Position numbers and translations under genes: made by a program
Source of the DNA: Pseudomonadota bacterium
GTDB lineage: Bacteria > Pseudomonadota > Alphaproteobacteria > Acetobacterales > Acetobacteraceae
Length of the DNA: 11,752 bases
Direction: 5' to 3'
Assembly: GCA_021829055.1 (NCBI GenBank)
Contig: JAJZCS010000038.1
Location: 1-11,752, forward strand
In this document: positions 1 to 11,752 of the stretch, piece by piece
How positions within the stretch are numbered: position 1 is the stretch's first letter
Layout: each line of letters opens with the position of its first letter
The notes under the pieces: model-generated
The model's input: only the letters and a program-made list of their open reading frames with translations
Told to the model about the DNA's origin: nothing
Databases searched by the model: none

Positions 1-68
1 GGTAGACGCACTAGTTTCAGGTACTAGCGGGTAACACCGTGGAGGTTCGAGTCCTCTCCTGGGCACCA
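1..68 (+). tRNA. tRNA-Leu (anticodon CAG), 5' end cut by window
   Basis: This is the 3' four-fifths of a leucine tRNA; comparison with the near-complete copy at 9140 shows that 17 bases are missing on the left. The anticodon arm is CTAGT-TTCAGGT-ACTAG, giving anticodon CAG. A variable arm follows, then the T arm GGAGG-TTCGAGT-CCTCT, the acceptor strand CCTGGGC, discriminator A and an encoded CCA (66-68). The last 26 bases (43-68) are the left copy of the attachment core, and the integrase gene starts 182 bp downstream. Integration at the 3' end therefore leaves the tRNA intact, as is usual for P4-type integrases. Confidence 0.95.
43..68 (+). repeat. attL core (26 bp, tRNA-Leu 3' end)
   Basis: These 26 bases, from the T arm to the CCA end of the tRNA, recur without mismatch at 6865-6890. 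Sequence on the two outer sides does not match, so the identity ends at the CCA. Confidence 0.9.
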
Positions 69-192
69 TGCACGCATTTCACCGCGTCGCGCTTTATCTC
101 AACAAGTATCATAACCCCTTGTAATTCTTGGGCGACAGGGTAAAGCTGTGTCGCATTGACACTTACTGCATATCACCACAGCGCGATGAATT

Positions 193-224
193 TGTAGGTA
201 CGGCTGTGGTACGAATGTGGTACG
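193..224 (+). repeat. Left integrase arm-type sites (three copies)
   Basis: TGTAGGTACG (193-202), TGTGGTACG (205-213) and TGTGGTACG (216-224) lie head to tail at 11-12 bp spacing, between attL and the integrase gene. The right end holds the same motif twice (6796-6817). Short direct repeats inside both ends of an integrated element are what arm-binding domains of tyrosine integrases recognise. Binding itself is inferred. Confidence 0.6.
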
Positions 225-250
225 GCTGATCGAGTTGCCAGGAGGTCCGA

Positions 251-1468
251 ATGGAAAAACTTACTGCACTACGCTGCCGGACCGCGTCGCCAGGCAAACA
301 CTTCGACGGTCGCGGGTTGTATCTCCACGTGAAACAAAGCGGCGCGCGCACCTGGCGCCTCGCCTATCGCTTTGGCGATCTGTCAAAAACAATTACCTTC
401 GGAAATTTCCCAGAGGTGACGCTCGCCGAAGCGCGCGTGCGTCGCGATGATGCGCGCCGACTGCTCCGCGACGGCAAGAATCCAAGCGCGCTGCGCCAGG
501 AGCAGCAGTTCGCTGATCGTCGCGCCACAAATGCGACATTCCCGACCGTCGCGGCGGCGTGGCTCGAACACAAACGCAAGGCGTGGGCGCCGGCGACTTA
601 CAGGAAAGCGAAATTCATCGCCGACACGTACTTGGTGCCGGCATTCCGCAAATGCTCGGTGGAGACGCTCGGCACCCCCGAGGCTGCGGATGCGCTCGAA
701 GCCATCGCCGATCGTGTGCCTGCACTAGCGAGCAAAGCGCGGCAGCATCTCAATGGCATTATCCAGTTCGCCATCCGCAAGCGCCTGCGCGAGGACGGCA
801 GGATCCTTCTGCTCAGAGGCTTGCTCCCCACGCATCGGGCGGACTCGATACCAGCCGCGACGGATCCGCAGCAGGTCGCCGAGCTCGCCCGCGGCATCGA
901 GGCCTACCCTATCCCGGTCACACGCCATGCACTCAAGATTGCGATGCTGACGGCGCAGCGCCCGGGCAACGTCGCCGACATGCGCTGGCAGGATCTCGAT
1001 CTGGACGCCGCGGAATGGCGGATCCCCGCGGAATTGATGAAAACCGGTCATGCGCACGTGGTGCCGCTGAGCCGCCAGGCCGTCGCCACGCTGAAAGAGA
1101 TGGGCGCCTACAGCTCCGGCCGCGCGTATGTATTCCCGCCGCTGGCGCGCCAGAAAACTCCGCACCTTCACCGTGACGCGCTCTCAGCGGCGTTGCGTCG
1201 CATGGGTTTCGCCGGCAAGCATGCCACTCATGGCTTCCGCGCAATGTTCCGGACGGTGGCACGCGAACGCCTGCATGTGAGCTCGGACGTTCTGGAAGCG
1301 CAGCTCGCGCACCGGAAGCGCGGAGAGGTGGCGCAGGCCTACGATCGCACCCAGTTCATCGATGAACGCCACCAGGTCATGCAGCATTGGGCCGATTACC
1401 TTGACCAGTTGCGCAGCGGCGAGACCGCGAGCGTGGTGCCGCTGCGGAGGATTCGTGCAAAAGGATAG
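251..1468 (+). CDS. int: Tyrosine integrase, P4 type
   Basis: A 405-aa site-specific tyrosine recombinase that should insert and, with a directionality factor, excise the element at tRNA-Leu. Residues 1-90 match the arm-DNA-binding domain (DUF4102 type: LYLHVKQSGARTW, GNFPEVTLAEAR), about 97-190 the core-binding domain, and 205-380 the catalytic domain. The catalytic set is complete: R237 (TAQRPGN), K264 (MKTGHAHVVPL), H327 and R330 (HATHGFR), H354 (QLAHRKRG) and nucleophile Y364 (QAYDRT). ATG at 251 is chosen because AGGAGG lies at 240-245. It is transcribed away from the tRNA, as is usual for this family, and its 3' end overlaps the next gene by 14 bp. Length is normal for the family. Confidence 0.96.
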   Translation: MEKLTALRCRTASPGKHFDGRGLYLHVKQSGARTWRLAYRFGDLSKTITFGNFPEVTLAEARVRRDDARRLLRDGKNPSALRQEQQFADRRATNATFPTVAAAWLEHKRKAWAPATYRKAKFIADTYLVPAFRKCSVETLGTPEAADALEAIADRVPALASKARQHLNGIIQFAIRKRLREDGRILLLRGLLPTHRADSIPAATDPQQVAELARGIEAYPIPVTRHALKIAMLTAQRPGNVADMRWQDLDLDAAEWRIPAELMKTGHAHVVPLSRQAVATLKEMGAYSSGRAYVFPPLARQKTPHLHRDALSAALRRMGFAGKHATHGFRAMFRTVARERLHVSSDVLEAQLAHRKRGEVAQAYDRTQFIDERHQVMQHWADYLDQLRSGETASVVPLRRIRAKG

Positions 1469-1922
1469 CTTGCTGCTCTCGCGCCTCGTGGGGCTGCTCT
1501 GCGAGACCGGGGAGATCTATACCGAACCGATGGTGGGTTTTCTCACCATCCTTGAGGCGCATGCATCCGGGGGCAAGATTCCTGACGGCATCGCGGACTG
1601 GCTCCGGGATGCAATGACGCGTTATGCCAGCTACGAAGCGCAGACGCTCGATGAGGCCTTCGGTATACACCGCAAACCAAATAGCCGCCGGCGGTCGAAA
1701 CACAAGGTCGACCCCAGGACCGGATACACGAAGCGATTCCAGGTCTACTACGACGTGATATACGAGCGCGAGAGGCGCAGGCTTTTAAAGCCACCCCAAC
1801 GCACCGCACACCGGCAGAAAGTGGCCCAGGACGTATTTAAAGCTGTCGGCGACCGACACGGACTGAGCCCGAAGGCTGTTGAACAGTGGTGTGAGGAAGT
1901 GAAAAAGCTTCCACCATCCTAA
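1455..1922 (+). CDS. Unknown basic protein coupled to integrase
   Basis: I do not recognise a family for this 155-aa protein. The frame stays open upstream to an ATG at 1362 inside int, but a GTG at 1455 has GGAGG at 1446-1450 and gives only a 14-bp overlap with the integrase stop, so I choose it. The N-terminal half (about residues 1-65) looks helical and mixed in charge. The middle is rich in Arg/Lys (RKPNSRRRSKHK, YERERRRLLK), and the C-terminus (VFKAVGDRHGLSPKAVEQWC) reads like a helix-turn-helix. A nucleic-acid-binding role and translational coupling to int would fit an accessory to recombination or regulation, but that is inference. Confidence 0.7.
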   Translation: MQKDSLLLSRLVGLLCETGEIYTEPMVGFLTILEAHASGGKIPDGIADWLRDAMTRYASYEAQTLDEAFGIHRKPNSRRRSKHKVDPRTGYTKRFQVYYDVIYERERRRLLKPPQRTAHRQKVAQDVFKAVGDRHGLSPKAVEQWCEEVKKLPPS

Positions 1923-1998
1923 AATAATGCCGTAATTTTTAGGGCTACAGCGCGCCGCAATCCGGCTACTCTTCGCAACCGGTACATTCGAGTTGCGA
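1918..1998 (+). promoter_or_regulatory. Two dyads upstream of alpA
   Basis: Between the previous stop codon and alpA are two inverted repeats. CCTAAAA (1918-1924) pairs with TTTTAGG (1937-1943), and TCGCAAC (1973-1979) pairs with GTTGCGA (1992-1998); each has a 12-base spacer. The second overlaps the alpA ribosome-binding region. The first could be a weak terminator or an operator. No clear -35/-10 pair was found, so the promoter is unplaced. Confidence 0.35.
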
Positions 1999-2009
1999 GG
2001 GGACACGCC

Positions 2010-2234
2010 GTGTCAAATCTTCTAACGATGACGCAGGTACGCGAGCTGATGGGAAACGTCAGCGCCGCCACCGTGTATCGCCACATACAAGTCGGAACCT
2101 TCCCGAGACCAATAAAACTTTTTAATGGTGGCGTCGCTGCGCGATGGCTTGAGGATGAGGTCGTGGCCGCGTTGGACGCCCGGAAAGCGGCACGCGCGAT
2201 CGAAACGCCGCGGGCAGTCCGGCGTGCTCCATGA
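2010..2234 (+). CDS. alpA: AlpA-family transcriptional regulator
   Basis: A 74-aa AlpA/CP4-57-regulator-type DNA-binding protein. The family's pattern is plain: LLTMTQVRELMGNVSAATVYRH (about residues 4-25) forms the MerR-like helix-turn-helix, followed by FPRPIKLFNGGVAARWLEDEVVAAL, where the small wing and the W-x-x-x-E helix sit. Start is GTG at 2010, with GAGGGG just upstream (1998-2003). In CP4-57, AlpA activates the excisionase side of the element; in phage satellites it is the usual activator of the excision/replication operon. It overlaps the next gene by ATGA (2231-2234), so the two are co-translated. A role in induction of this element is inferred. Confidence 0.92.
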   Translation: MSNLLTMTQVRELMGNVSAATVYRHIQVGTFPRPIKLFNGGVAARWLEDEVVAALDARKAARAIETPRAVRRAP

Positions 2235-2500
2235 GCACACTCAATCGAAAATCAAAAACAGCCAGGATCCTCCACCTGCTAGCCATGGGACATACCCTGA
2301 ACCGCTTCGAAGCGGAGCGAGTCGGCGATCACACGTTGCCGCAAACCATCGACCGATTGCAGCGCCGCTATGGCATCGCCGTTGCCCGTCAGGATGAGGT
2401 CGTCAAGGGCTGGTGTGGCCACGAGACGCGCGTCGCGCGCTACTGGCTTGAGGCGTCTGCGCGCGAGCTGGCGCTCAAACTTCTGTCAAAAGCGAATTAG
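2231..2500 (+). CDS. Small helix-turn-helix protein
   Basis: An 89-aa protein starting inside the alpA stop (ATGA). It reads as a compact winged helix: TARILHLLAMGHTLNRFEAERVG (residues 9-31), then a recognition-helix region LPQTIDRLQRRYGIAVAR, and a C-terminal segment ending in RVARYWLEASAREL. Proteins of this layout recur in small AlpA-bearing prophage islands, from memory rather than a search. The tight coupling with AlpA suggests a joint role in control or replication. The biochemical function is unknown. Confidence 0.8.
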   Translation: MSTLNRKSKTARILHLLAMGHTLNRFEAERVGDHTLPQTIDRLQRRYGIAVARQDEVVKGWCGHETRVARYWLEASARELALKLLSKAN

Positions 2501-2532
2501 AAAAAAGGCCCGGGGCGAAATTTCCCGGGCCT
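2501..2532 (-). terminator. Hairpin with terminator shape on the minus strand
   Basis: AGGCCCGGG (2506-2514) pairs perfectly with CCCGGGCCT (2524-2532) around a 9-base loop. On the plus strand it is preceded by AAAAAA and not followed by a T run; read on the minus strand it becomes a GC-rich stem followed by six Ts, a textbook intrinsic terminator. No minus-strand gene is seen in the element, so it may block antisense transcription, or simply be an RNA hairpin in front of the next ribosome-binding site. Confidence 0.5.
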
Positions 2533-2546
2533 CAAGGTGATGGACT

Positions 2547-2963
2547 ATGGACACCGCGAGTGTAGCACGCGCGAGCGTTTTACACGATCAATCCGCATGG
2601 CGCGACCTCAACAGGTGGCGCCGGCGCGTCATCTCGGATGCTGGGCCCAAACAATCAACGATGAGGCTGCTGCTCCTCGTATTGGCGACGCACAGTGATG
2701 CCAACCTGGTCTGCTACCCATCCGAGCGCACACTTGCCGCGGAAACGGCCCTGACGGTCCGCTCAGTGCGAACACACCTCAAGGCGGCTGAGTGCGACGG
2801 GTGGATCTCGCGAACTCCCGCGGCGTTTAAACGCGGCCGGTGGTGGCATACGGTTTACCTGTTGACCAATCCGGCTATCTCACGAGAGGAATCACGTTCC
2901 GCTCATCAAAGCGCCCACGAGAGGAACGACGTTCCCTCACGAGAGGAACCACGTTCCCACTAA
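2547..2963 (+). CDS. HTH_36-type replication-initiator-like protein
   Basis: A 138-aa protein with AAGGTGA at 2534-2540 ahead of its ATG. Residues about 35-110 form a winged helix of the HTH_36 type (LLVLATHSDANLVCYPSERT, then VRSVRTHLKAAECDGWISRT), the fold found in the N-terminal domains of phage O-like and plasmid initiators. The last 28 residues (from about 111) are low-complexity (SREESRS, SREEPRSH) because the DNA there holds three 20-bp repeats. No DnaD, primase or helicase domain follows, so the protein is short for an initiator. With the repeats inside its own gene, as lambda ori lies inside gene O, it is the best candidate for an origin-binding protein. That role is inference. Confidence 0.75.
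   Translation: MDTASVARASVLHDQSAWRDLNRWRRRVISDAGPKQSTMRLLLLVLATHSDANLVCYPSERTLAAETALTVRSVRTHLKAAECDGWISRTPAAFKRGRWWHTVYLLTNPAISREESRSAHQSAHERNDVPSREEPRSH
2881..2957 (+). repeat. Three iteron-like 20-bp repeats (candidate origin)
   Basis: CACGAGAGGAAYSACGTTCC occurs at 2881-2900, 2916-2935 and 2938-2957. The 2nd and 3rd copies hold the dyad GGAAC-N3-GTTCC perfectly, the 1st with one mismatch. Copies 1 and 3 share a reading frame, while copy 2 is offset (35 bp after copy 1), so the conservation acts on DNA rather than protein. An AT-rich stretch (taaatatt) follows at once. Origin or initiator-binding function is inferred. Confidence 0.65.
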
Positions 2964-3019
2964 ATATTCCAGAAGAACTGAAGAGGGTCTACAGGGAGTG
3001 AGAGCTTGAAGATGAAGAT

Positions 3020-3038
3020 CCAGGATTCCCTGGTTTTT
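3020..3038 (+). terminator. Short intrinsic terminator-like hairpin
   Basis: CCAGG (3020-3024), a 4-base loop, CCTGG (3029-3033), then TTTTT. The stem is only 5 bp, so it may be a weak or partial terminator after the HTH_36 gene. Confidence 0.4.
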
Positions 3039-3093
3039 AGGTTCAGAAACGCCGGCGGGCCCGGCCGCGCAACGCAATTCACCGAGGTGAGAA

Positions 3094-3378
3094 ATGAATA
3101 AACCCAAGGTCATCTGTAGCGGCTGCCTTGCACTGTTGCTCGCTGAAATTGAGAAAAAATGCCCGAAGGCGGGGCCCTTTACCGTCTACTGGCACTGTAA
3201 CCATCACCAGGCGCTCACGCTGGCGAGCCGCGCCCTACAGGATGGCCCGCTCAGTTGGATTTCCTGGAGTCCGCTCGACGAAGATGGGGTGCGCAAGGTC
3301 ATCGTGCTCAATGGGGTTTTGGGCGGCACGCTTGGAAAGGCGCTTGAGGTCGGTGAGCACAGCTCGCGGTTGCAATGA
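3094..3378 (+). CDS. Small Cys/His-rich protein of unknown function
   Basis: A 94-aa protein with GAGG at 3084-3087, six bases before its ATG. I do not recognise it. The N-terminal half carries C8-x2-C11, C23, and the cluster H34-C35-N36-H37-H38 (WHCNHH), which could hold a zinc ion. The rest is mixed, with a hydrophobic strand VRKVIVLNGVLGG near residue 70. It sits between the replication-type gene and the capsid gene, after a weak terminator. No signal peptide or membrane segment is evident. Confidence 0.65.
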   Translation: MNKPKVICSGCLALLLAEIEKKCPKAGPFTVYWHCNHHQALTLASRALQDGPLSWISWSPLDEDGVRKVIVLNGVLGGTLGKALEVGEHSSRLQ

Positions 3379-3579
3379 TTGCCGCTCCAAGTCTATGATC
3401 GACCTCGGCGTTGAAACTTGCGACGTGCGACCGGCGACCCGACAAAGTCGCCCTAGCTCGCAAGGGAACGCCCAAGGCACAAAGCGGAACACCGGGCGAA
3501 TAGCGCTCGGCACGTCTCCAGCGATGATCGGCCATGCAATGAATCGACCCGCGCAATCGCGCGCGTGCGGAGCATGGCC
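3379..3579 (+). other. Leader of capsid gene, no gene seen
   Basis: About 200 bp without a supported gene. An open frame runs through it on the plus strand from 3128 (151 codons), but it is mostly a frame shadow of the previous gene and its product is low-complexity Arg/Ser-rich. A hairpin GGCGAC-N8-GTCGCC lies at 3433-3452. No clear promoter was found. Confidence 0.4.
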
Positions 3580-5409
3580 ATGACCGAAAAAGTTTTCAGA
3601 GATTTTCAGATCGATATCGAGGCGCGCGCCGCGAACGCGGACGCACGCACCGCCCCTATCACGTTGTCGACAACCTTCCCTGTCCCGCGAGACTGGGGCA
3701 CCGAGGTTCTCGACCATTCCCCGCAAGCTGTTGACCTGTCGAGAGCGCCTCTGCCGCTGCTGGAGTCGCACAACTCCGGAGCGCTGCCGGTCGGCGTGGT
3801 GGAGAACCTGCACCTTGACGGCGAAAAGCTCCGCGGCCAGATCAGGCTCAGCAAATCCGAACGCGCCGGCGACATCTGGCAGGACATCCAGGATCGGATC
3901 CTGCGCGGCGTGAGCGTGGGGTATCAAATCTTCAAGAAGCGCGACGAGCCTGACGGCATCGTGCGCATCACCCATTGGCAGCCGATCGAGGCATCGCTGG
4001 TCAGCATTCCAGCCGACCCTCGGTCCGGCATTTACCGTAACCATCACCAGGAGACCACCATGGAACCAACCAATTCGCAGAATACGCGGAGCGACCACGT
4101 GCAGGATCCCGATGCAGCCGAAAGGGCCCATGTCGAACGTGACCGCGTGCAAGGCATTCTCGCCATCGGCGACAAATTCAAGCAACAGGACGCCGCCCGG
4201 GCGTTCCTCAGTGAAGGCAAAAGCGTGGGTTCGTTCCGGAAGTTCGTTCTCGACAAGATCTCGGACGAACAACCGGCGCGACCGCTCCGCGCCAGCCTGG
4301 ATATTACGCAGCGTGAGCGCCGCCCGTATAGCTTGCGCAACGCCATCCTGGCGCAGCTGCCGAAAAGCATGATCGAGGGCCGGCAGATTGATGCAGGCTA
4401 CGAGCTCGAGCTCTCGCAGGAGACCGCGCGCACCCAGAAACGGCAGCCGCGCGGATTCTTGGTCCCGCTCGAGGCCTTCGGGACGCGCGAGGGTGGGCGA
4501 CGCGATCTGACGGAGGGGATTGGATCCGCTGGTGGCGACCTGGTGGAGACCCAGCTGCTCGCATCCGATTTCATCCAGCTGCTTCGAAACCGCACGCAGG
4601 TGCTTCGCCTCGGCGCGCGCACTTTGACCGGCCTGGTCGGCAATGTGGCGATCCCCGCGCAGACGGGTGCGGCCACGGCGCAATGGGTGGCGGAAAACGC
4701 CAACCTCACCGAATCCGATCAGACCTTTTCTCAAATCACAATGCAGCCGCACACAGTCGGCGCACTGACGCAAATGTCCCGCCGGTTACTGCTTCAAGCG
4801 ACGCCAGGCATTGAGGATCTGGTACGGGCCGATCTGGTTGCGCAGATCGCCATTGCGATCGACGCCGCCGCGATCGATGGTGCAGGCGGCACCTCGCCGA
4901 CGGGCATTCTGGCGACAAGTGGCGTGGGAAGCGTGGCGCTCGGCACAAACGGCGGCGCGCCGACTTACGGATCGATCGTGTCGCTTTACCAAGCGCTCGG
5001 CCAGGCCAATGCCGATCGCGGCGCCCTTGGATTCCTCGCGAATGCCGCCGGCAAGGCGACGCTGCTGACGACGCCAAAGATCGGCAGCACCTATCCGACC
5101 TTCATCTGGGAAACTCCAGACGACACCGAAGCGAACCCGCTGGATGGATTGATGATCGGCTATAAGTGCGGCGTCTCAAACAACGTTCCGAGCAACCTGA
5201 CGAAAGGCACTGGCACGAACCTGTCCGCCTTGATCTTCGGCAACTGGACCGACCTGTACATCGGCATCTGGGGTGGACTGGATGTGCTGGTGGATCCATA
5301 CACGTTGAGCGCAGCCGGCGAATTGCGGATTGTCTGCTTCGAAAGCGTGGACATTGGCATCCGCCACCCCGCGAGCTTCGCGGCCATCGTGGATATGATT
5401 ACGACCTGA
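3580..5409 (+). CDS. Fused HK97-type prohead protease and major capsid protein
   Basis: A 609-aa fusion. Residues 1-155 are a U35/S78-family prohead protease with the likely catalytic His64 (LLESHNSGALPVG), Ser112 (GVSVGYQI) and the conserved E137 (PIEASLVSIPAD). Residues about 160-290 are charged and helical, as expected of a scaffolding (delta) domain, and about 300-609 are the HK97-fold capsid domain (GSAGGDLVE, IPAQTGAATAQWVAENA, DAAAIDGAGGTSPTGIL). GTG 3565 and ATG 3574 are in frame, but ATG 3580 has GGAG seven bases upstream, so I choose it. It should assemble into a procapsid and mature by self-cleavage of the delta region. It is the only shell gene here; portal and connectors must come from a helper. 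Confidence 0.93.
   Translation: MTEKVFRDFQIDIEARAANADARTAPITLSTTFPVPRDWGTEVLDHSPQAVDLSRAPLPLLESHNSGALPVGVVENLHLDGEKLRGQIRLSKSERAGDIWQDIQDRILRGVSVGYQIFKKRDEPDGIVRITHWQPIEASLVSIPADPRSGIYRNHHQETTMEPTNSQNTRSDHVQDPDAAERAHVERDRVQGILAIGDKFKQQDAARAFLSEGKSVGSFRKFVLDKISDEQPARPLRASLDITQRERRPYSLRNAILAQLPKSMIEGRQIDAGYELELSQETARTQKRQPRGFLVPLEAFGTREGGRRDLTEGIGSAGGDLVETQLLASDFIQLLRNRTQVLRLGARTLTGLVGNVAIPAQTGAATAQWVAENANLTESDQTFSQITMQPHTVGALTQMSRRLLLQATPGIEDLVRADLVAQIAIAIDAAAIDGAGGTSPTGILATSGVGSVALGTNGGAPTYGSIVSLYQALGQANADRGALGFLANAAGKATLLTTPKIGSTYPTFIWETPDDTEANPLDGLMIGYKCGVSNNVPSNLTKGTGTNLSALIFGNWTDLYIGIWGGLDVLVDPYTLSAAGELRIVCFESVDIGIRHPASFAAIVDMITT
4049..4062 (+). promoter_or_regulatory. Internal ribosome-binding site and start for stand-alone capsid protein
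   Basis: AGGAG at 4049-4053 lies six bases before an in-frame ATG at 4060, exactly at the junction of protease and scaffold domains (residue 161 of the fusion). Starting there would give a 449-aa scaffold-plus-capsid protein free of the protease. An internal start in an HK97-type fusion lets many capsid subunits be made per protease. Use of this start is inferred. Confidence 0.6.
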
Positions 5410-5701
5410 TGCGAGTGAGCAGGGAAATGGCAGTGCGGCCCTGCAGCTGGCAACCGTCCACCAGCTACTCCACCGCACCGCTTACGAGCGCTCGCACGGC
5501 GTGCGCACCGCTTACGAGCGCGCGCACAACGTTCATAGATTTAGTAATGCGCGCGCGGGTCCTTCCTGGCAGTCACAGACTGCGGGTGCTGACGAGCGCG
5601 GAATTTTTTTAGGCGCTGGGAGGGCCAGGGTTGCTCCCTTTGACACCGGCGCGTGGCGCGATGGCTGAAAGGCCGTGAGAATTACGGTGGAGAACGGCTG
5701 A
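5410..5701 (+). other. Possible cos region with repeats, upstream of small terminase gene
   Basis: This 292-bp gap between capsid and small-terminase genes has no supported gene. GCACCGCTTACGAGCGC occurs at 5475-5491 and again at 5505-5521 (30-bp period; similarity runs on to CGCAC after one mismatch). The core ACGAGCGC is found a third time at 5592-5599. A perfect hairpin GCAGTC-ACA-GACTGC sits at 5569-5583, and a run of seven Ts at 5604-5610. In lambda, cos lies just before nu1 and holds three R sites bound by gpNu1, so the position and layout fit a cos/TerS-binding site. That is inference. Confidence 0.35.
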
Positions 5702-6202
5702 ATGCTTGTCAACAAACGCAACCTCTCGGCCATTCTTGGCGTCACTGAGTCCAGTTTGACCACTTGGCAAAACGAAGAGCAACTGCCGATCAACCAGGTG
5801 CCGAAGCGCCGCGGCCAGGAGCAGCTTTACGATACGGTCGAAGTCATCCGCTGGATGATCGCGCGCGCCGCCGGCGACGATCTCAACGCCGAGAAAACGC
5901 GGCTCACGCGCGAGCAGGCGGACAAGACCGCCATCGAGAACGCGCGCCTCAGGGCCGAGCTCGTGCCGGCGGTACTCGTCGAACGTGCATGGGGCAAGAT
6001 GCTTGGGGCGTTCCGCGCGCGACTTCTCCGGCTGCCAGCTCAACTTGCAACCTCGCTCGCCAATGAGACCGAACACTCCGGTTTCCAGCGCGTGCTCCGC
6101 AGGGGCGTGCACGATTGCTTGAACGAACTCTGCGCCCAGGATCTTCCACGCGACGCTGACGAGGGTGGTGGTGAGCCACGCAGTCCACCGGCGTCAGCAT
6201 AA
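5702..6202 (+). CDS. Terminase small subunit, Nu1 type
   Basis: A 166-aa DNA-packaging protein. The N-terminus (MLVNKRNLSAILGVTESSLT to about residue 58) matches the Nu1 winged helix, with TTWQNEEQLPI and YDTVEVIRWMIARA. It is followed by the family's LNAEKTRLTREQADKTAIEN coiled-coil (about 61-80), ending at RAELVPAVLVERAWGKML and the C-terminal helix FRARLLRLPAQLA. GGAG at 5689-5692 supports ATG 5702. The small terminase recognises the packaging site and hands DNA to the large subunit. No large subunit is encoded, so it would have to recruit a helper's motor, as satellite TerS proteins do in other PICIs. Confidence 0.88.
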   Translation: MLVNKRNLSAILGVTESSLTTWQNEEQLPINQVPKRRGQEQLYDTVEVIRWMIARAAGDDLNAEKTRLTREQADKTAIENARLRAELVPAVLVERAWGKMLGAFRARLLRLPAQLATSLANETEHSGFQRVLRRGVHDCLNELCAQDLPRDADEGGGEPRSPPASA

Positions 6203-6239
6203 TCCGCACTGGCAAACCCCCGAATTTCGTCTATGCTTG

Positions 6240-6370
6240 AGAAGCCCCGCTCACGGGGTGCGGCTTAGAAACCGCGACAGGCACCAACCAACGCCGGGCG
6301 GCCGCCTGCATACAACACCCTTCGGGGGAATATGGCGGGGCGTCACTGTGCGCTTTCTAACCGCCCGGCA
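6240..6370 (+). ncRNA. Structured RNA candidate, possibly C4-like antisense RNA/leader
   Basis: Dense RNA structure between terS and the next ORF. CCCCG-CTCA-CGGGG is at 6245-6258. GCGG-CTTAGAAA-CCGC is at 6260-6275. CCC-TTCG-GGG, a UUCG tetraloop, is at 6318-6327. GGCGG (6334-6338) pairs with CCGCC (6361-6365). The loop TTAGAAA (6265-6271) is perfectly complementary to TTTCTAA (6354-6360); with flanks, 14 base pairs form with one bulge and one mismatch, in competition with the local hairpins. The second arm ends shortly before a ribosome-binding site. This resembles the plan of phage C4 antisense RNAs (P1, P4), but I cannot confirm the family by eye. Confidence 0.45.
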
Positions 6371-6389
6371 TCATTGGAAGGAACTAGCC

Positions 6390-6614
6390 ATGAGCAAGAT
6401 TGAAATCACGGTCGAAGTTGACGTGAACGACTTGCGACTATGCGTCGCGGGACTCGCCGAGGCCGCGGACCTGGCGTCGCACGGGTTTGCAGTCAGCCAG
6501 GAACGTGACAAGGAGGCACTGAGCGGCATCGTCGGCGCCAACGCCATTCTGGCGCGCATGCTGAGCAACGCACTGGCTAAAGGCAACGATCCCAACACAG
6601 CCAAGTTGGCGTGA
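6390..6614 (+). CDS. Small protein of unknown function at the right end
   Basis: A 74-aa acidic, mostly helical protein (DVNDLRLCVAGLAEAADLAS, ALSGIVGANAILARMLSNAL) that I do not recognise. The frame is open back to an ATG at 6165 inside terS, but AAGGA at 6378-6382, seven bases from ATG 6390, makes this the likely start. Its translation could be controlled by the structured RNA ahead of it. It is the last gene of the element before the terminator. Confidence 0.65.
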   Translation: MSKIEITVEVDVNDLRLCVAGLAEAADLASHGFAVSQERDKEALSGIVGANAILARMLSNALAKGNDPNTAKLA

Positions 6615-6773
6615 CGAATGCTATTGGGACGATGCGGTTACATACGTCAAGCGGGGCGTGGCAAATAGCTTTAAGCGAGTGAAGCGGAAAGCAGACGCAC
6701 ACCAACAGCCGGTCCTGCAATAGGAACAACGCACGCCACAGCCCACCGGCGAAAAGACCATTCAATGACTTGG

Positions 6774-6796
6774 AGCGCCCTTCCGGGCGCTTTTTT
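6774..6796 (+). terminator. Intrinsic terminator at end of the element
   Basis: AGCGCCC (6774-6780), loop TTCC, GGGCGCT (6785-6791), then TTTTTT. It closes rightward transcription of the element about 160 bp after the last ORF and directly abuts the right arm-type repeats. Confidence 0.88.
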
Positions 6797-6817
6797 GTAG
6801 GTACAGCTGTGGGTACG
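6796..6817 (+). repeat. Right integrase arm-type sites (two copies)
   Basis: TGTAGGTACA (6796-6805) and TGTGGGTACG (6808-6817), 12 bp apart, match the left-end motif at 193-224 in sequence, orientation and spacing. They lie about 50 bp inside the right att core. Confidence 0.6.
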
Positions 6818-6864
6818 GAACGCGGACGGTGGCGCGAGCCCAAACGTGGCAAGGCCTGGCGGGT

Positions 6865-6890
6865 AGGTTCGAGTCCTCTCCTGGGCACCA
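6865..6890 (+). repeat. attR core (26 bp)
   Basis: A perfect copy of tRNA-Leu positions 43-68, from the T arm to CCA, with no tRNA body upstream. It marks the right end of the satellite. Confidence 0.9.
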
Positions 6891-6918
6891 GCCACTCAGT
6901 CAATCTGGTTATTTTCAC

Positions 6919-6948
6919 TGAACCATCCCTGGTGAGCTTACCGGCCCC
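6919..6948 (+). repeat. 30-bp block, copy 1
   Basis: TGAACCATCCCTGGTGAGCT and the ten bases that follow recur at 9254-9283 with one mismatch. Each copy starts about 30 bp after a CCA end of a tRNA-Leu sequence. A 9-bp hairpin (GCCCCAACA-TCCC-TGTTGGGGC, 6944-6965) begins inside it. It is probably the original 3' flank of tRNA-Leu, present twice. Confidence 0.7.
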
Positions 6949-6969
6949 AACATCCCTGTTGGGGCGTTC

Positions 6970-7008
6970 GGCCGGACGCGAGCAGTGCTCGCGCTAAACG
7001 CTCCGGCC
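6970..7008 (+). repeat. Nested stem-loop
   Basis: GGCCGGA (6970-6976) pairs with TCCGGCC (7002-7008). Inside, CGCGAGC (6977-6983) pairs with GCTCGCG (6987-6993) around loop AGT, leaving CTAAACGC as a one-sided bulge. There is no T tract. It lies just before the third tRNA-end fragment. Function unknown. Confidence 0.55.
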
Positions 7009-7012
7009 TCAC

Positions 7013-7028
7013 CCTCTCCTGGGCACCA
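7013..7028 (+). repeat. Third tRNA-Leu 3'-end fragment (16 bp)
   Basis: CCTCTCCTGGGCACCA is identical to the last 16 bases of the tRNA-Leu. It looks like an att remnant of another, lost or decayed insertion at the same site. Confidence 0.6.
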
Positions 7029-7440
7029 CCAGACGATTTCAAGGAATTCCACAACGACCAGCACAATGCTCATAACCCTCACGGTTAGTGGGTTTTTGTT
7101 CTTTATCGTCCGCAGCCATGCCATTCACATCAACCGATTGTAGGGCCACGTTTGAAATCAATACGACGATACGCGCGCTGAACCAGTGGCGAATCAAAAT
7201 CACGTGTATGCCGATGCACTGGTGATTCAGAAACACACTGCAAATGTATTGAATAAATACCCCCGCATCATAAAAACGACTTCAGCTGGAATGGCTTGAG
7301 AATATCCGAGCTTGCCTAGCTACAGTATTAAACGTTTGGGATACCTGAAAAGATGCTGAGAGTTTGTCCACCCTCGTTTTAGGGTACCTTGGCATCTGAG
7401 ATCCAAATAGCGCCGGCGCTTCGACGAGCCCTATACCTTG
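7029..7440. other. Gene-free, AT-richer spacer before hipBA
   Basis: About 410 bp with no supported gene; open frames are short and unconvincing. A weak terminator-like hairpin with a bulge and a run of five Ts lies near 7072-7096. ACCAGTG (7182-7188) pairs with CACTGGT (7217-7223), and ACCCT-N6-AGGGT is at about 7371-7386. Base composition is visibly lower in GC than the satellite, suggesting separate origin. Confidence 0.5.
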
Positions 7441-7441
7441 C

Positions 7442-7466
7442 AGCGTATATTGCATAGATATACGCT
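7442..7466 (+). promoter_or_regulatory. hipBA operator O1
   Basis: A perfect palindrome AGCGTATAT-N7-ATATACGCT, 25 bp in all. It overlaps the -35 box TTGCAT (7450-7455). HipB is the expected ligand. Confidence 0.75.
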
Positions 7467-7478
7467 GTAGCGTATATT
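7450..7478 (+). promoter_or_regulatory. hipBA promoter
   Basis: -35 TTGCAT (7450-7455), a 17-bp spacer, then -10 TATATT (7473-7478). Both boxes lie inside the two operators, so bound HipB would exclude RNA polymerase. Confidence 0.65.
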
Positions 7479-7493
7479 ACGCATTTATACGCT
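7469..7493 (+). promoter_or_regulatory. hipBA operator O2
   Basis: A palindrome AGCGTATA-N9-TATACGCT, 25 bp in all, 27 bp downstream of O1 and covering the -10 box. It shares its outer arms with O1, so both should bind the same dimer. Confidence 0.75.
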
Positions 7494-7527
7494 ATACAGT
7501 ATGTATGAAAATGTGGAGCGCACCCCT

Positions 7528-7782
7528 ATGAACGAGCAGATTGCCCGCACACCGAAACAGATCGGCGCCGCAATGCGCCGCCGCCGCCGCGCGCTTGGCC
7601 TTAACCAAAAAAACCTGGGCGAAAAGACCCACCTGCGCCAAGCGACGATTTCCGGGCTCGAAGCTGGCGAGGCCGGTACCCAGCTCAGCACATTGTTTGG
7701 CGTACTCACGGCGCTGCATATGGAGCTGGTCGTTCGTCCGCGGACGAAAGCCTCAACGGACACGATCGAGGAGTTGTTCTAA
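7528..7782 (+). CDS. hipB: HipB antitoxin
   Basis: An 84-aa Xre-type repressor and antitoxin. Residues about 10-65 form the helix-turn-helix (IGAAMRRRRRALGLNQKNLG, then LRQATISGLEAGEAGTQLST). A C-terminal beta strand (HMELVVRPRTK) is the dimerising strand seen in HipB. An ATG at 7501 is in frame but has no ribosome-binding site; ATG 7528 has GGAG at 7515-7518. Length is close to E. coli HipB (88 aa). The stop overlaps the hipA start (TAATG). It should neutralise HipA and repress its own operon through O1 and O2. Confidence 0.92.
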   Translation: MNEQIARTPKQIGAAMRRRRRALGLNQKNLGEKTHLRQATISGLEAGEAGTQLSTLFGVLTALHMELVVRPRTKASTDTIEELF

Positions 7783-9101
7783 TGGCGCGACCGCGCACGC
7801 GTATCCCTCTCAATGTGTTTCTTAACGGGCGATTGGTCGGCCGCCTGAGACGGCAATCGAGCGGAGCGATCGATTTTGTATATGACCGCAGCTGGCTCGA
7901 CTGGGAACATACACTCCCAATATCACTTTCCCTTCCGCTTCGAGAGGACCGCTATATTGGTAATCCGGTGAGTGCGGTCTTTGACAACCTGCTTCCTGAT
8001 AACGATCAAATTCGCCGCCGTTTGGCTGAGCGCGTCAGAGCCGAAGGTGACGACGCTTACAGCCTGTTGACCGCCGTTGGCCGTGACTGTGTCGGCGCTC
8101 TCCAATTTCTACCCGAAGGCGAGGCACCCGGCCCAGTAGGTCGGATATCCGGGCGTCCTCTTAGTGACAAACAAATCGCCAACATCCTGAGCGATCTGAA
8201 GCGCACACCCCTGGGCGTGGATGAAAGCGACGAATTCCGTATCTCGCTGGCGGGTGCCCAGGAAAAGACTGCGCTGCTCTTATCGGAAGACAAATGGCAG
8301 CTGCCGCATGGCACCACGGCGACAACCCACATTCTGAAACCAGAAATCGGCATGCTCCAGAATGGGATTGATCTAACCAGAAGTATTGAAATCGAACATC
8401 TGTGCATGTCCCTGGCCGATAATTTCGGACTACCGACAGCAAAAACAAAAATGTTAACTTTCGATGGAAAACGCGCGTTAGTGATCGAACGATTTGACCG
8501 CCGATGGATAGCGGATGGCCGTCTCCTTCGTCTCCCACAGGAAGACTGTTGTCAGGCGCTCTCGATACCGCCGACCCGCAAGTATGAGCCGGATGGCGGC
8601 CCGGGTATTCGAGATGTTATAGATTTACTCAAAGCCAGTGACGAACCGGCAACCGATCAAAGATCGTTTCTTAAGACTCAGATCGTTTATTGGCTGATTG
8701 GCGCAACCGACGGTCATGCCAAGAATTTCAGCATCCATCTTTTACCCGGTGGAAGATTCCGGCTCACACCCCTTTACGATATCATGTCTGCACAGCCAAA
8801 CGTGGATGCGGGACAGATTCAGCACAATCGCATGAAGCTTGCGATGGCGGTGGGTGACAAGCGGCATTACACCATAAACTCGATAATGCCACGGCACTTC
8901 CTGCAGACGGCCGACCGCTGCGGCCTATCAACTGATTTTGCGCAGAGCATTCTGGATGAGATCCAATCAAATGCAGAGCGCGCCATTGACACCACTCTTG
9001 CGGAATTACCCCCTGACTTCCCGGAAAGTGTCAGCGCACCCATCATCACTGGAGTGCGTCGGCGCCTCCGCCTCATCACACAAGAAAATAATGCTGAATG
9101 A
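7782..9101 (+). CDS. hipA: HipA serine/threonine kinase toxin
   Basis: A 439-aa toxin, full length against E. coli HipA (440 aa) and similar throughout. In E. coli HipA phosphorylates glutamyl-tRNA synthetase, halting translation and promoting persistence. Key residues are present: S155 in ISLAGAQEKTALL (equivalent of autophosphorylated S150), K186 in TTHILKPE (ATP binding), the VIERFDRRW motif, catalytic D310 in GATDGHAKNFS and metal-binding D333 in YDIMSA. The start overlaps the hipB stop by one base. No inactivating change is seen, so it should be active. Its target here is inferred from the family. Confidence 0.95.
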   Translation: MARPRTRIPLNVFLNGRLVGRLRRQSSGAIDFVYDRSWLDWEHTLPISLSLPLREDRYIGNPVSAVFDNLLPDNDQIRRRLAERVRAEGDDAYSLLTAVGRDCVGALQFLPEGEAPGPVGRISGRPLSDKQIANILSDLKRTPLGVDESDEFRISLAGAQEKTALLLSEDKWQLPHGTTATTHILKPEIGMLQNGIDLTRSIEIEHLCMSLADNFGLPTAKTKMLTFDGKRALVIERFDRRWIADGRLLRLPQEDCCQALSIPPTRKYEPDGGPGIRDVIDLLKASDEPATDQRSFLKTQIVYWLIGATDGHAKNFSIHLLPGGRFRLTPLYDIMSAQPNVDAGQIQHNRMKLAMAVGDKRHYTINSIMPRHFLQTADRCGLSTDFAQSILDEIQSNAERAIDTTLAELPPDFPESVSAPIITGVRRRLRLITQENNAE

Positions 9102-9139
9102 TAAATCCCGTGACTGAAGACCGCATACGACCTGCCCCT

Positions 9140-9223
<84 letters not shown>

Positions 9224-9253
9224 GCTTCCTAAAGCTACATAATTTATTCATAT

Positions 9254-9283
9254 TGAACCATACCTGGTGAGCTTACCGGCCCC
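9254..9283 (+). repeat. 30-bp block, copy 2
   Basis: Matches 6919-6948 with one mismatch and lies 31 bp after the CCA of the tRNA pseudogene. As in copy 1, a stem starts in its last bases: GCCCCGCC (9279-9286) pairs with GGCGGGGC (9322-9329) over a 35-base loop holding GCGCA-N6-TGCGC. Confidence 0.7.
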
Positions 9284-9345
9284 GCCGACACGCTGCGCAT
9301 CCTGCTGCGCGTGCGGTCCAGGGCGGGGCGTGCGAGCGCCTTTAC

Positions 9346-9370
9346 AACTGTAGCATGTTATATTACAGTT
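9346..9370 (+). promoter_or_regulatory. higBA operator and promoter
   Basis: AACTGTA (9346-9352) and TACAGTT (9364-9370) form a 7-bp dyad with an 11-base spacer. The spacer and right arm hold an extended -10, TGT-TATATT (9356-9364); no good -35 was found at the right distance. HigA or the HigBA complex would bind here and repress. Confidence 0.6.
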
Positions 9371-9376
9371 TCGCAG

Positions 9377-9652
9377 GTGATCCGCAGCTTCCGGCACAAG
9401 GGATTGGCCGCCCTATACCAAGACGGTGACCCCAAGGGCATACGTCCTGATTTGGTGGAACGCTGCCGGGCGCGACTGACTGCTCTGCGAATGGCGCGCA
9501 CGCTTACAGAGCTACAGGTGCCAGGATTCAGGATGCACGCGCTCCACGGCAAACCGAAGCGTTATGCCATTGCCGTGAACGGCCCTTGGCGCATTACCTT
9601 CGAATGGCAGGAAGGCGCTGCTTGGCGCGTGGACTTGGAACAATATCATTGA
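9377..9652 (+). CDS. higB: HigB toxin (RelE/ParE superfamily)
   Basis: A 91-aa ribosome-dependent mRNA interferase of the HigB family. IRSFRHKGLAALYQDGDPKG opens the protein as is typical, followed by LVERCRARLTALRMAR, LQVPGFRMHALHGKPKRYAI, VNGPWRITFEW and the family's C-terminal RVDLEQYH. The open frame continues upstream to 9311, but that part runs through the promoter and operator, and homology begins at the GTG at 9377. The ribosome-binding site is poor, and the predicted transcription start would leave a leader of only about 5 bases. The toxin-first order is characteristic of higBA. Confidence 0.9.
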   Translation: MIRSFRHKGLAALYQDGDPKGIRPDLVERCRARLTALRMARTLTELQVPGFRMHALHGKPKRYAIAVNGPWRITFEWQEGAAWRVDLEQYH

Positions 9653-9662
9653 GGTGAAAGAC

Positions 9663-9992
9663 ATGAGTGGACGCGAATACGTTGTCAAAGCCGAGCCCAA
9701 GATGCGGCCCACGCATCCGGGCGCACTGCTGCGCGAGGATGCGTTGCCAGCGCTGGGCCTTTCCGTGAGCGAAGCCGCGCGGCTCCTGGGTGTGTCGCGG
9801 CAAACACTCCACCGCCTGCTCGCCGAAACTATCGGTGTATCGCCAGACATGGCGCTGCGCCTCGGTAAGCTTTGCGGCAACGGTCCCGGCCTGTGGCTCC
9901 GGATGCAGACCGAGTATGACTTGTGGCAAGCACGGGGGCGGCTGGCCACCGAACTCCGACACATCCCCACCCGACGGGCTGTGAATGAGTGA
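9663..9992 (+). CDS. higA: HigA antitoxin
   Basis: A 109-aa Xre-family antitoxin, 10 bp after higB. GAGG at 9651-9654 overlaps the higB stop and favours ATG 9663 over the in-frame GTG 9654. The HigA signature is clear: RPTHPGALLREDALPALGLS, then the helix-turn-helix SEAARLLGVSRQTLHRLLAE and VSPDMALRLGKL, ending with LWLRMQTEYDLWQAR. It should sequester HigB and repress the operon through the dyad at 9346-9370. Confidence 0.94.
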   Translation: MSGREYVVKAEPKMRPTHPGALLREDALPALGLSVSEAARLLGVSRQTLHRLLAETIGVSPDMALRLGKLCGNGPGLWLRMQTEYDLWQARGRLATELRHIPTRRAVNE

Positions 9993-10026
9993 ATAACACA
10001 GTGGTAGTTAACTTGTTTCTCCATAG

Positions 10027-10339
10027 ATGCGCTTAAACCGCATGCTCAATCCACCATAATCCCGGGAAAATCCTCAAGCACGACGTGCTGCCTGAACTGG
10101 GACTTACTGTAACGCAGGCAGCTGAGCAGCTTGGTATGTCGCGTGTGGCATTTTCGCGCGTGGTCAACGGCCGTGCTGCGGTCAGCGCGGACTTGGCCTT
10201 GCGTCTTGCCGACTGGCTGCCGCCCAGCGCCGAAAGCTGGCTGCGCATGCAGGCGGCCTACGACTTGTGGCATGCAAGCCGCAAGCGCAGACCGCGGATT
10301 AGAAAAGCCGCCGCGAACACCCATCTGAGTCACGTTTAG
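10027..10339 (+). pseudogene. Orphan higA-like antitoxin gene with frameshift
   Basis: A second HigA homologue. ATG 10027 opens MRLNRMLNPP, the usual HigA start, and then hits TAA at 10057-10059. One frame over, the protein continues as NPGKILKHDVLPELGLTVTQ with the full helix-turn-helix (MSRVAFSRVVNGRAAVSADL) and SWLRMQAAYDLWHASRKRR to the stop at 10339. The two parts join with about one extra base near 10055-10060. The second frame has no ATG; a GTG at 10085 could give an 84-aa protein lacking the first HigA segment. No matching toxin is present. Confidence 0.75.
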
Positions 10340-10439
10340 ATAGCGAAGAGATGCGAAATTCTGATATCAGTTCGCGAGCTCCACGCCTCGGCCCAACGCA
10401 GCGATGAAACAGCGTAAGTAACCATCACTGCGCAGCACA

Positions 10440-11711
10440 TCAAGCCACCCGCACCTGACCGTTCATCAGCAGCGGCAGCAACCAGTCGCGGAGTTGGGCG
10501 AGATAAGCGTTCTCAAGTTCACGATTTACGACCGCACTAACAAAGCTTTCTGTTGCCGCAACATATTTCTGAATCAGACCGTCGTCCCTCGGATAAGGGA
10601 TAGAATAATTTTCTAAACGGTTTTCCCAATTTATGTATGGCTGTTGAGTCCCTACCGAAAGTTTCGACGCCATCTCGATTGTTCGATCTTCGTTACACAC
10701 TTGATAAAGGTACGGAAGGTGGTCGCCAACCTTCGCGCGTAAGACAAGTGTTGTTGCTCTCGTGACGCCATCGAACGGTGCGACGCAGACGCGATGGAAG
10801 TAGACCCGCATGGCGCCGATCAAGATGTCGCCTTTCCGGTACCTGATCAAGCTCGTATTTGCCTCGGTAGAAGGCCGCACGAACCCGAAGCTCATTTTCC
10901 TCATTGGCAACGAATCTATTGGTGTATACGGCGTACCCTCAATCACACCAGATGCAGACACGCCATCGGAACGCGCTTCGAGTAACTCGTTTAGGTGCTT
11001 GACGTCCCACCCCGCCGGAATTTCGCGCTTGAGGGTGTCGTTCCAGACCATCGCGCCGCCGCTGGATTTATAGGGGCGGCCGTGGGCGTCGGGGAAATCG
11101 AACTGCACGAACCAGTAGTCGTAGATGGTTTTGGCCAGCGCCTCCAGCTCGGCGTTGATGCGGTTGTTGAGGTCAATCTTGGCGTCGAGGGCTTTCAAAA
11201 CCTCACCGATGCCTTTGGTATCTTCCAGCAGTGGAATCTGCAACTCTTTCAACGTCGGGATGCGCAGATTACTGACGGTTGAGCCGGTTTCGTCGCTAGC
11301 GCCGATTTGTTCCTGCACAAACTGCGACTGCATGGCGTAGAGCAGGTAATGCCGATCCACTTTCGCAGGATCGGGTTTGACCAGAACCAGTCGCTGTCCA
11401 AGGCAGCATTCGACGCCGTCCGGAATCATGCCCACTTCGCCCATTGGCGCTTCGCGTGTGACGATCAAGTCACCCGGTTCTGGAACGCTGCGGGAAATGC
11501 GCTGCAGAAAGGTCGCATGATCGGTGCAGGAAGCGTTATTGAGCGCAATCCTTCCGCGTTTGATGTTTTCGCTGCGAACGACGATCCAGCCTGATTCGGT
11601 CCAATTTGGCGTGGAGTGGTGGCAATCCGTAATCGCCGTGCACAGACGCTGCAATTGAACGACCTTTCCATAAAACGTGTGCTTCGAAATGGCATTTCCC
11701 CCATCACTCAT
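10440..11711 (-). CDS. hsdS: Type I restriction-modification specificity subunit
   Basis: A 423-aa HsdS, full length. It has two target-recognition domains (about residues 1-160 and 235-380), each followed by a conserved helical spacer. The central one, DAKIDLNNRINAELEALAKT to IYDYWFVQFDFP (about 176-207), is highly typical, and the protein ends with ENAYLAQLRDWLLPLLMNGQ. HsdS selects the DNA site for the methylase (HsdM2S) and the restriction complex. ATG at 11711 overlaps the preceding frame by ATGA, the usual hsdM-hsdS coupling. It converges on the higA remnant. Its target sequence cannot be read from the protein by eye. Confidence 0.95.
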   Translation of the reverse strand: MSDGGNAISKHTFYGKVVQLQRLCTAITDCHHSTPNWTESGWIVVRSENIKRGRIALNNASCTDHATFLQRISRSVPEPGDLIVTREAPMGEVGMIPDGVECCLGQRLVLVKPDPAKVDRHYLLYAMQSQFVQEQIGASDETGSTVSNLRIPTLKELQIPLLEDTKGIGEVLKALDAKIDLNNRINAELEALAKTIYDYWFVQFDFPDAHGRPYKSSGGAMVWNDTLKREIPAGWDVKHLNELLEARSDGVSASGVIEGTPYTPIDSLPMRKMSFGFVRPSTEANTSLIRYRKGDILIGAMRVYFHRVCVAPFDGVTRATTLVLRAKVGDHLPYLYQVCNEDRTIEMASKLSVGTQQPYINWENRLENYSIPYPRDDGLIQKYVAATESFVSAVVNRELENAYLAQLRDWLLPLLMNGQVRVA

Positions 11712-11752
11712 GCGCGCAGCCCAGCAAGGCGCATTTCCCGCAGCGTTCCAGA
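11708..11752 (-). CDS. hsdM: Probable HsdM C-terminus (partial)
   Basis: On the minus strand the window edge enters an open frame reading SGTLREMRLAGLRA and stopping at TGA 11710-11708, which overlaps the hsdS ATG by four bases. The position and overlap are as expected for hsdM, but 14 residues are too few to prove the family. Confidence 0.45.
   Translation of the reverse strand, partial: SGTLREMRLAGLRA

Follow-up and report, generated by a model that had tools for sequence, protein, structure and literature searches.

A 6.8-kb tRNA-Leu element with a protease/capsid fusion and a small terminase, probably a phage satellite that borrows a helper's portal, motor and tail

The window analysed here, the whole of an 11,752-nucleotide stretch (contig JAJZCS010000038.1, positions 1 to 11,752, assembly GCA_021829055.1, binned as an Acetobacteraceae member of the Pseudomonadota), carries a 6.8-kb element at a tRNA-Leu gene. 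The element is bounded by a perfect 26-bp direct repeat, AGGTTCGAGTCCTCTCCTGGGCACCA, at 43–68 and 6865–6890, and by simple arithmetic a chance match of this length is not expected in 11.7 kb. All genes between the two attachment (att)-like repeats lie on the plus strand, over 6822 bp from repeat start to repeat start, and their positions and matches are collected in Table 1. They include a tyrosine integrase, an AlpA-type regulator, a protein resembling phage O-type replication initiators, a zinc-ribbon-like small protein, a fusion of prohead protease and HK97-type coat protein, and a small terminase (TerS). An original prediction, made from the nucleotide sequence before any database search, had described an att-bounded element with these integrase, alpA, protease/coat and TerS genes at tRNA-Leu, and the repeats and profile searches bear it out. 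Of the two helix-turn-helix (HTH) genes that it named, the HTH_36 gene was recovered as a match to O-like initiators, whereas orf4 gave no Pfam match.

In searches of Pfam, PHROGs and NCBIfam, no portal, large terminase (TerL), connector, HNH endonuclease or tail gene was matched in the element, although a small, diverged connector could escape such searches. With the integrase, coat and TerS genes set aside, the longest open reading frame (ORF) encodes 186 aa (orf2 read from the ATG at 1362), which is too short for a portal or TerL, since several hundred residues are needed for either. Longer overlapping ORFs occur in other frames (512 aa antisense at 3235–4773, 205 aa at 559–1176 and 167 aa antisense at 5609–6112), and for these nothing was matched in PHROGs or Pfam. 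The lack of recognisable portal, TerL and tail genes, as noted in the original prediction, is upheld.

The coat gene likely starts at ATG 3580, giving a product of 609 aa, the length also of entry P0001. An AlphaFold2 model of this protein (mean pLDDT 78, pTM 0.54) was matched by Foldseek to HK97-fold capsids, the best being those of siphophage R4C and of a gene transfer agent. Residues H64, S112 and E137 (609-aa numbering), which we take to be the S78 catalytic triad of the HK97 protease family, are invariant in 20 aligned coat sequences, and the corresponding H/S/E residues are kept in 23 of 23 fused satellite rows, 38 of 38 phage rows and 10 of 10 unplaced rows. By its model and alignment, the window coat protein looks functional. 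In the phages S-LBS1 and RcRhea, which have the same fused coat, the gene order is TerS, TerL, at least one small gene, portal and coat. Exact peptide scans returned no close relatives of the window coat in the genome or viral contig collections. The nearest homologues of the window's coat, orf6 and TerS are P0002–P0006, P0122 and P0125, with longest contigs of 50 kb for P0122 and 26 kb for P0125; scans for P0002 and P0125 in the viral contig collection likewise returned none.

Table 1. Features of the window element, with positions in the window and the matches or repeats that define them.
Feature	Position	Strand	Evidence or remark
tRNA-Leu, 3' part, integration target	1..67	+	contig starts inside gene; 97% over 62 nt to copy at 9157-9218
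attL-like 26-bp direct repeat	43..68	+	repeat search
Tyrosine integrase, frame intact	251..1468	+	PF00589 6e-16, PF13356 2e-21; phrog_1 1.5e-43
orf2, 155 aa from GTG 1455 (searched as read from 1362)	1455..1922	+	no family match in Pfam, PHROGs, NCBIfam
AlpA-type regulator/excisionase	2010..2234	+	PF05930 2.2e-5; phrog_66
orf4, small protein, 89 aa	2231..2500	+	phrog_4973 (unknown function); no Pfam match
HTH_36 protein, 138 aa, like N-terminal part of phage O-type replication initiators	2547..2963	+	PF13730 2.4e-8; phrog_1032, phrog_270, phrog_391
Three ~22-bp iteron-like direct repeats inside initiator gene	2879..2957	+	repeat family D3, spacing 35 and 22
orf6, zinc-ribbon-like small protein (CxxC...CxHH...W)	3094..3378	+	directly upstream of coat gene
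S78 prohead protease/delta domain/HK97 major capsid protein fusion, 609 aa	3580..5409	+	phrog_617 6e-121; PF05065 3e-41; PF04586 3e-6
Intergenic stretch between coat and TerS genes	5410..5701	+	tandem ~30-bp repeat 5474-5532 (D8); weak packaging-site resemblance 5579-5606
Nu1-type small terminase (TerS), 166 aa	5702..6202	+	PF07471 5e-10; phrog_57 7e-35
sRNA-Xcc1 family RNA, between terS and orf9	6293..6377	+	RF02221, 61.1 bits vs gathering 53
orf9, 74 aa (searched as read from 6165)	6390..6614	+	no family match in Pfam, PHROGs, NCBIfam
attR-like 26-bp direct repeat	6865..6890	+	repeat search

The same gap recurs in other genomes, where 21 relatives carry the fused coat with no portal or TerL nearby; none of the relatives fetched has the element inside a full prophage, an arrangement that the original prediction had named as counting against it. 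The relatives come from three sources, namely the order to which the window is assigned (matches in 21 of 299 genomes), public genomes (80 of 82 kept) and IMG/VR (80 of at least 599 kept), and every ORF in the loci was scored against profiles of coat, integrase, TerS, TerL and portal, the last in two kinds. A coat was present in 181 loci: TerL and portal accompanied it in 65, a portal alone in 59 and neither in 57, many of these 57 being cut contigs. By a stricter rule (coat of at least 500 aa, at least 2.5 kb seen upstream, the expected place of the portal, and known duplicates removed), 150 rows were divided into 107 phage, 27 satellite and 16 undecided. Six satellite rows were then dropped: L053 for a neck/tail-completion gene, L075, L156, L170 and L182 for having no integrase or a doubtful context, and L101 because it nearly duplicates L095, which lies on the same contig. 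One undecided row, L060, was added despite only 2.2 kb seen upstream, giving 22 satellite rows with the window included. An integrase lies in the locus in 17 of the 22. Replication genes vary (primase/helicase, AAA_25, DnaB-like, O-like), several relatives having a primase or helicase, unlike the window, and the coat is common to all. Related elements are present in the named isolates Thiomonas bhubaneswarensis DSM 18181, Nitrosospira sp. Nsp11, Thioalkalivibrio sp. ALE14, Haliea sp. E1-2-M8 and Acidovorax sp. NB1; att repeats closing the element are absent from the available sequence of all five.

Att-like repeats of 24–51 bp close nine of the 21 elements tested, the window's included, and L251, closed by a 17-bp repeat in a single-contig stretch of 2.74 Mb, makes ten. 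These are found at tRNA-Gly (L130, 9085 bp from start to start), tRNA-Asn (L050, 8888 bp; L099, 9232 bp), tRNA-Val (L054, 9012 bp; L251, 8834 bp), tRNA-Cys (L057, 9291 bp), tRNA-Pro (L119, 9200 bp; L111, 14521 bp), tRNA-Arg (L125, 4964 bp) and, for the window's 26-bp repeat, tRNA-Leu (6822 bp), that is, at seven kinds of tRNA. A 21-bp repeat of L128, which is not at a tRNA, and imperfect repeats around L064, L104, L123 and L126 were not counted. Seven of the ten closed elements measure 8.8–9.3 kb, and this near-constancy suggests a size limit. In L099 the coat gene is followed by TerS, as in the window.

The satellites also cluster by their coats. In a tree of 70 rows, made by a quick method with phages thinned to 60% identity and attended by long-branch warnings, the labels change five times for phages and nine times for satellites, against shuffled means of 23.2 and 19.1, and none of 500 shuffles reached values as low. 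The window is placed with five metagenomic coats of unknown context (P0002–P0006) and is not nested among phage rows; L099, with its split coat, and L111, without the protease domain, lie outside the 22 tree rows. The intact frames noted in the original prediction hold for the window, and in five gene pairs synonymous changes per site outnumber nonsynonymous ones, most clearly in the L123/L125 coat pair (dN 0.107, dS 0.78); the others all have dS >1.

Directly upstream of the coat, 10 of the 22 satellite rows, including the window (orf6), encode a protein some 90 aa long that shows the pattern CxxC...CxH...W. Run against 18,275 ORFs from 185 loci, a profile built from four members recovered five more (E between 6e-9 and 0.003), all of them in satellites and at the same place, with no significant match in the phage loci of this set (next matches E 0.27 or worse). 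In a single profile-profile comparison, orf6 matched the satellite family A3 with a probability of 79.9 and E 1.4e-5, and its residues C8, C11, C35, H38 and W55 are conserved in two close homologues. No match to orf6 was found in Pfam, PHROGs, NCBIfam or PADLOC, and neither orf6 nor the L130 member had a match in 50,697 phage records. Since the L130, L060, L071 and L072 members lack some of the Cys and His residues, "zinc ribbon" is a description of the family and is predicted only. A regular expression for the zinc-ribbon pattern was written after the members, the window's included, had been seen, and its clean result is therefore an illustration and not a test. The protein is a candidate accessory factor for setting shell size or fitting the helper portal.

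A possible helper was looked for in the same genomes. Of 21 genomes or records with a satellite, four encode a GpA-type TerL, and each of these also has a lambda-type portal, adjoining TerL and off the satellite's contig; one of the four is the genome of L053, which is no longer among the satellite rows. Nitrosospira sp. Nsp11 harbours the prophage L212, in which TerS, TerL and portal occur together with a fused coat sharing 42% identity with that of the satellite L058. The two have 62 identical bp in common (L058 9271–9332; L212 6293–6354, abutting the TerS start of L212), a sequence present exactly twice in the available Nsp11 genome sequence, and in a second Nsp11 prophage, L252, an 88-bp stretch immediately before TerS matches the site at 83%. 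From its sequence and position, the 62-bp stretch is probably a copied helper packaging (cos) site. Apart from itself, the window TerS has its best match, within the set of ORFs compared, in the L212 TerS (E 3.5e-24; 39% over 162 columns). The O-like gene of L058 has internal repeats, as does that of the window. Near contig ends, L058 (11801–11964) and L212 (15450–15613) share another 164 bp at 97%. A general lambda-like cosN motif upstream of TerS was also tried and rejected as not general, the best pattern being found in 1 of 44 phage loci, which was L212 itself; a packaging-site profile from three sequences gave no further significant match in the fetched loci.

Altogether, these results make it probable that the window element is a phage satellite which has its own coat fusion and TerS and borrows the portal, motor and tail of a helper. 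On helper growth, AlpA and integrase would excise the element, and the O-like protein would start replication at the repeats inside its own gene, a possible replication origin. Next, a small shell would form on the helper portal from the fused coat, either by itself or with some helper coat mixed in, and the protease of the fusion would remove itself and the delta domain. The element TerS would join the helper's GpA-type TerL and bring in element DNA, after which helper tails would complete the particle. The shell may be the element's own and smaller, as the original prediction had it. If true, a satellite can own its shell but not its portal or motor, and its coat must therefore accept a foreign portal. 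A more far-reaching version, which we put forward tentatively and regard as rather unlikely, is that these satellites form a separate, widespread class that builds its own entire small shell, for a unit of about 9 kb, on the helper portal, with the zinc-ribbon protein as adaptor or size setter. In that version, equally tentative, a cassette of TerS, zinc-ribbon protein and self-cleaving coat would take the place of the TerS, TerL, portal and coat genes of phages.

Several observations weigh against the borrowing of a helper's portal and motor by a coat- and TerS-bearing satellite. TerS was recognised in only 11 of the 22 satellite rows and in seven of the ten closed elements (not in L057, L119 or L125), so relatives vary and their common feature is the missing portal and TerL, not TerS. 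The coat gene of L111 has no protease domain (L044 is the same element), and the coat of L099 is split into two ORFs of 487 and 109 aa and is possibly broken. Against a profile built without it, orf6 scored E 0.67. In the Nsp11 pair, L058 has no closing att repeats, and its contig stops 176 bp past the coat gene, with no TerS seen there. No shared packaging site was found for the other three TerL-bearing genomes, including those of Thiomonas and Hydrogenophaga. In the window, the stretch at 5579–5606 resembles the L058 site with a local score of 27, reached by 2 of 1000 shuffles, and for the L212 and L252 sites 33 and 280 of 1000 shuffles were as good; a packaging site here is only weakly indicated and serves as a lead. 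The contig is probably foreign to its metagenome-assembled genome (MAG), whose gene content is then no guide to the helper of the window element, and excision, particles and transfer are predictions from sequence. Among Gram-negative phage-inducible chromosomal islands (PICIs), EcCICFT073 has coat and decoration genes, yet only phage-sized DNA was packaged, and deletion of either gene left transfer unaffected (PMC6092414). The coat homologue of SaPIbov5 cannot replace the helper coat (PMC5052747).

The best-placed alternative, possible but doubtful, is a resizing of the kind performed by Ccm, in which the element coat would join the helper coat at some capsomers and force a smaller shell. SaPIbov5 offers the precedent, having a coat homologue, a helper cos site and small T=4 shells made through Ccm at pentamers (PMC8569155). 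Mixing is conceivable in Nsp11, since satellite and prophage coats belong to the same fused family at the identity given above, and in Hydrogenophaga, since the two coats are distantly related (28% over 415 columns); L111, moreover, retains only the coat domain. Against this, the protease and delta domain are retained, with the triad in all fused rows, just as they are in phages making a complete shell, and the 20 kb around the GpA-type prophage of Thiomonas show no coat of the window's family. It is decidedly less probable that the coat and TerS serve interference only, poisoning helper head assembly while the element's packaging needs neither. Helper blocking is common among PICIs and the EcCICFT073 coat gene is dispensable for transfer, but its coat and decoration genes are dispensable for interference too (PMC6092414), and the shared Nsp11 site points to packaging.

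Descent from a full prophage that lost portal, TerL and tail and is now decaying is very improbable. The window's head genes do have phage homologues, and the closed relative L099 has a split coat. However, frames and att repeats are intact in the window, ten closed elements occupy seven kinds of tRNA, the gene pairs change less at nonsynonymous sites, the satellites cluster in the coat tree, and the shared zinc-ribbon-like gene has no significant match in phage loci. In addition, TerS follows the coat in the window, an order that plain deletion from the phage arrangement does not give. That the element is a complete capsid-forming PICI (cf-PICI) with portal and TerL diverged beyond recognition is scarcely credible, for although profile searches can miss diverged proteins and some satellite ORFs are matchless (such as a 386-aa ORF of L125), window ORFs outside integrase, coat and TerS do not exceed 186 aa and the longer overlapping ones are without matches.

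As for the host, three of the 21 genomes chosen for comparison, those of a Rhodocyclaceae bacterium, of a Dokdonella and of a further proteobacterial bin, have a tRNA-Leu 99–100% identical to that of the window. In the MAG's genus, the best match is 76–80% in 11 of 12 other genomes and there is none in the twelfth; the MAG's own copy reaches 81%. Because matches within the genus are only 76–80%, the contig is probably mis-binned and its host other than that of the bin, though the GC of six sampled MAG contigs (0.53–0.61) brackets the window's 0.588 and speaks against mis-binning. No PF05876 TerL was found in the MAG, a result set aside as uninformative since the contig is probably foreign to the bin. 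The left tRNA-Leu is only partly on the contig, and ARAGORN placed a second copy at 9139–9222. A HipA stretch is surrounded by a repeated 40-bp flank (88%) and by two tRNA-Leu copies that are partial or altered (1–67, 6860–6948, 9139–9283), which suggests a second, older tandem insertion at the same tRNA. The right flank encodes HipA, a HigB-type toxin with an HTH partner, another HTH protein and a type I restriction S subunit, and Pfam and PHROGs scans found no phage head or tail genes there. A word of the window's tandem repeat (5474–5532) was also matched in three viral contigs, L234–L236.

Further observations concern the relatives. L125 (97–5104) is an att-bounded element of 5.0 kb in which the only large ORFs are the integrase, the matchless 386-aa ORF and the coat fusion. 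Tape-measure-like proteins are encoded in L130 (6878–8260, 460 aa), L057 (10890–12911, 673 aa) and L044 (10644–13172, 842 aa), where no other tail gene was recognised, though not every ORF was scanned; tail length is possibly set by the satellite in these cases. In Prochlorococcus, L095, L101 and L102 carry coat genes of the family, L095 and L101 on one contig, and in the roughly 5–10 kb seen upstream the profiles detected no TerL, portal, TerS or integrase; these loci are possibly tycheposons. In the window's assigned order, most of L037–L043 and L046–L049 join an integrase and an HK97-type portal to a family coat, mostly of about 420 aa, and L049 has a PF04860 portal as well as a protease and a D5-type primase. 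These may be more complete capsid-forming satellites.

Compared with known systems (for satellite families see PMC11389934 and PMC10803314; see also PMC12324425), the element is a variant of the PICI-like satellites that carry a coat, and for this variant a named strain offers a candidate helper pair. The middle strategy between cf-PICIs and Staphylococcus aureus pathogenicity islands (SaPIs), as originally predicted, stands in outline but not alone, since SaPIbov5 Ccm, capsid-E PICIs and TG93 precede it. SaPI elements, at about 15 kb, are larger than the window element. Like the present satellites, SaPIbov5 has an HK97-fold coat homologue; it also has a copied helper cos site, with which the probable packaging site of L058 may be compared. 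Unlike the window, where a protease domain with intact triad is present, it has no identified protease, and its Ccm acts at pentamers with no replacement of the helper coat. In a literature search made without most subscription papers, no description was found of an integrated satellite with a PF05065 protease/coat fusion and TerS but no portal or TerL.

With Gram-negative PICIs, the window shares an integrase at one end and an AlpA-type regulator but not the pri-rep replication module, having only the O-like HTH_36 protein with its repeats. The cf-PICIs carry coat, protease, portal, connectors, both terminases and HNH (PMC10690885); the window has, like them, its own HK97-fold coat, maturation protease and TerS, and unlike them no recognised portal, head-tail connectors, TerL or HNH endonuclease, so it is not a cf-PICI. 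EcCICFT073 and PmCI172 are Gram-negative PICIs with a coat gene, and PmCI172 makes small heads (PMC6092414). Such lone-coat PICIs resemble the window in combining an integrase, an AlpA- or MerR-type regulator, a replication gene, a coat and sometimes terS (PMC6092414, PMC13230959). Their coats are of the PF03864 (capsid-E) type, of which 356 published examples were compared in a 2026 paper (PMC13230959), whereas that of the window is a PF05065 coat fused to an S78 protease. The PISP TG93 of Vibrio crassostreae has coat, maturation protease and TerS, no tail genes and proposed small heads (PMC13230959); it differs from the window in being an 11.1-kb plasmid with capsid protein E and no integrase detected, its relatives being reported there in Vibrio only. 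Finally, the phages RcRhea/Cronusvirus and S-LBS1 have, like the window, a protease/coat fusion of the same family and TerS, but these belong to full TerS-TerL-portal-coat-tail genomes of 34–36 kb.

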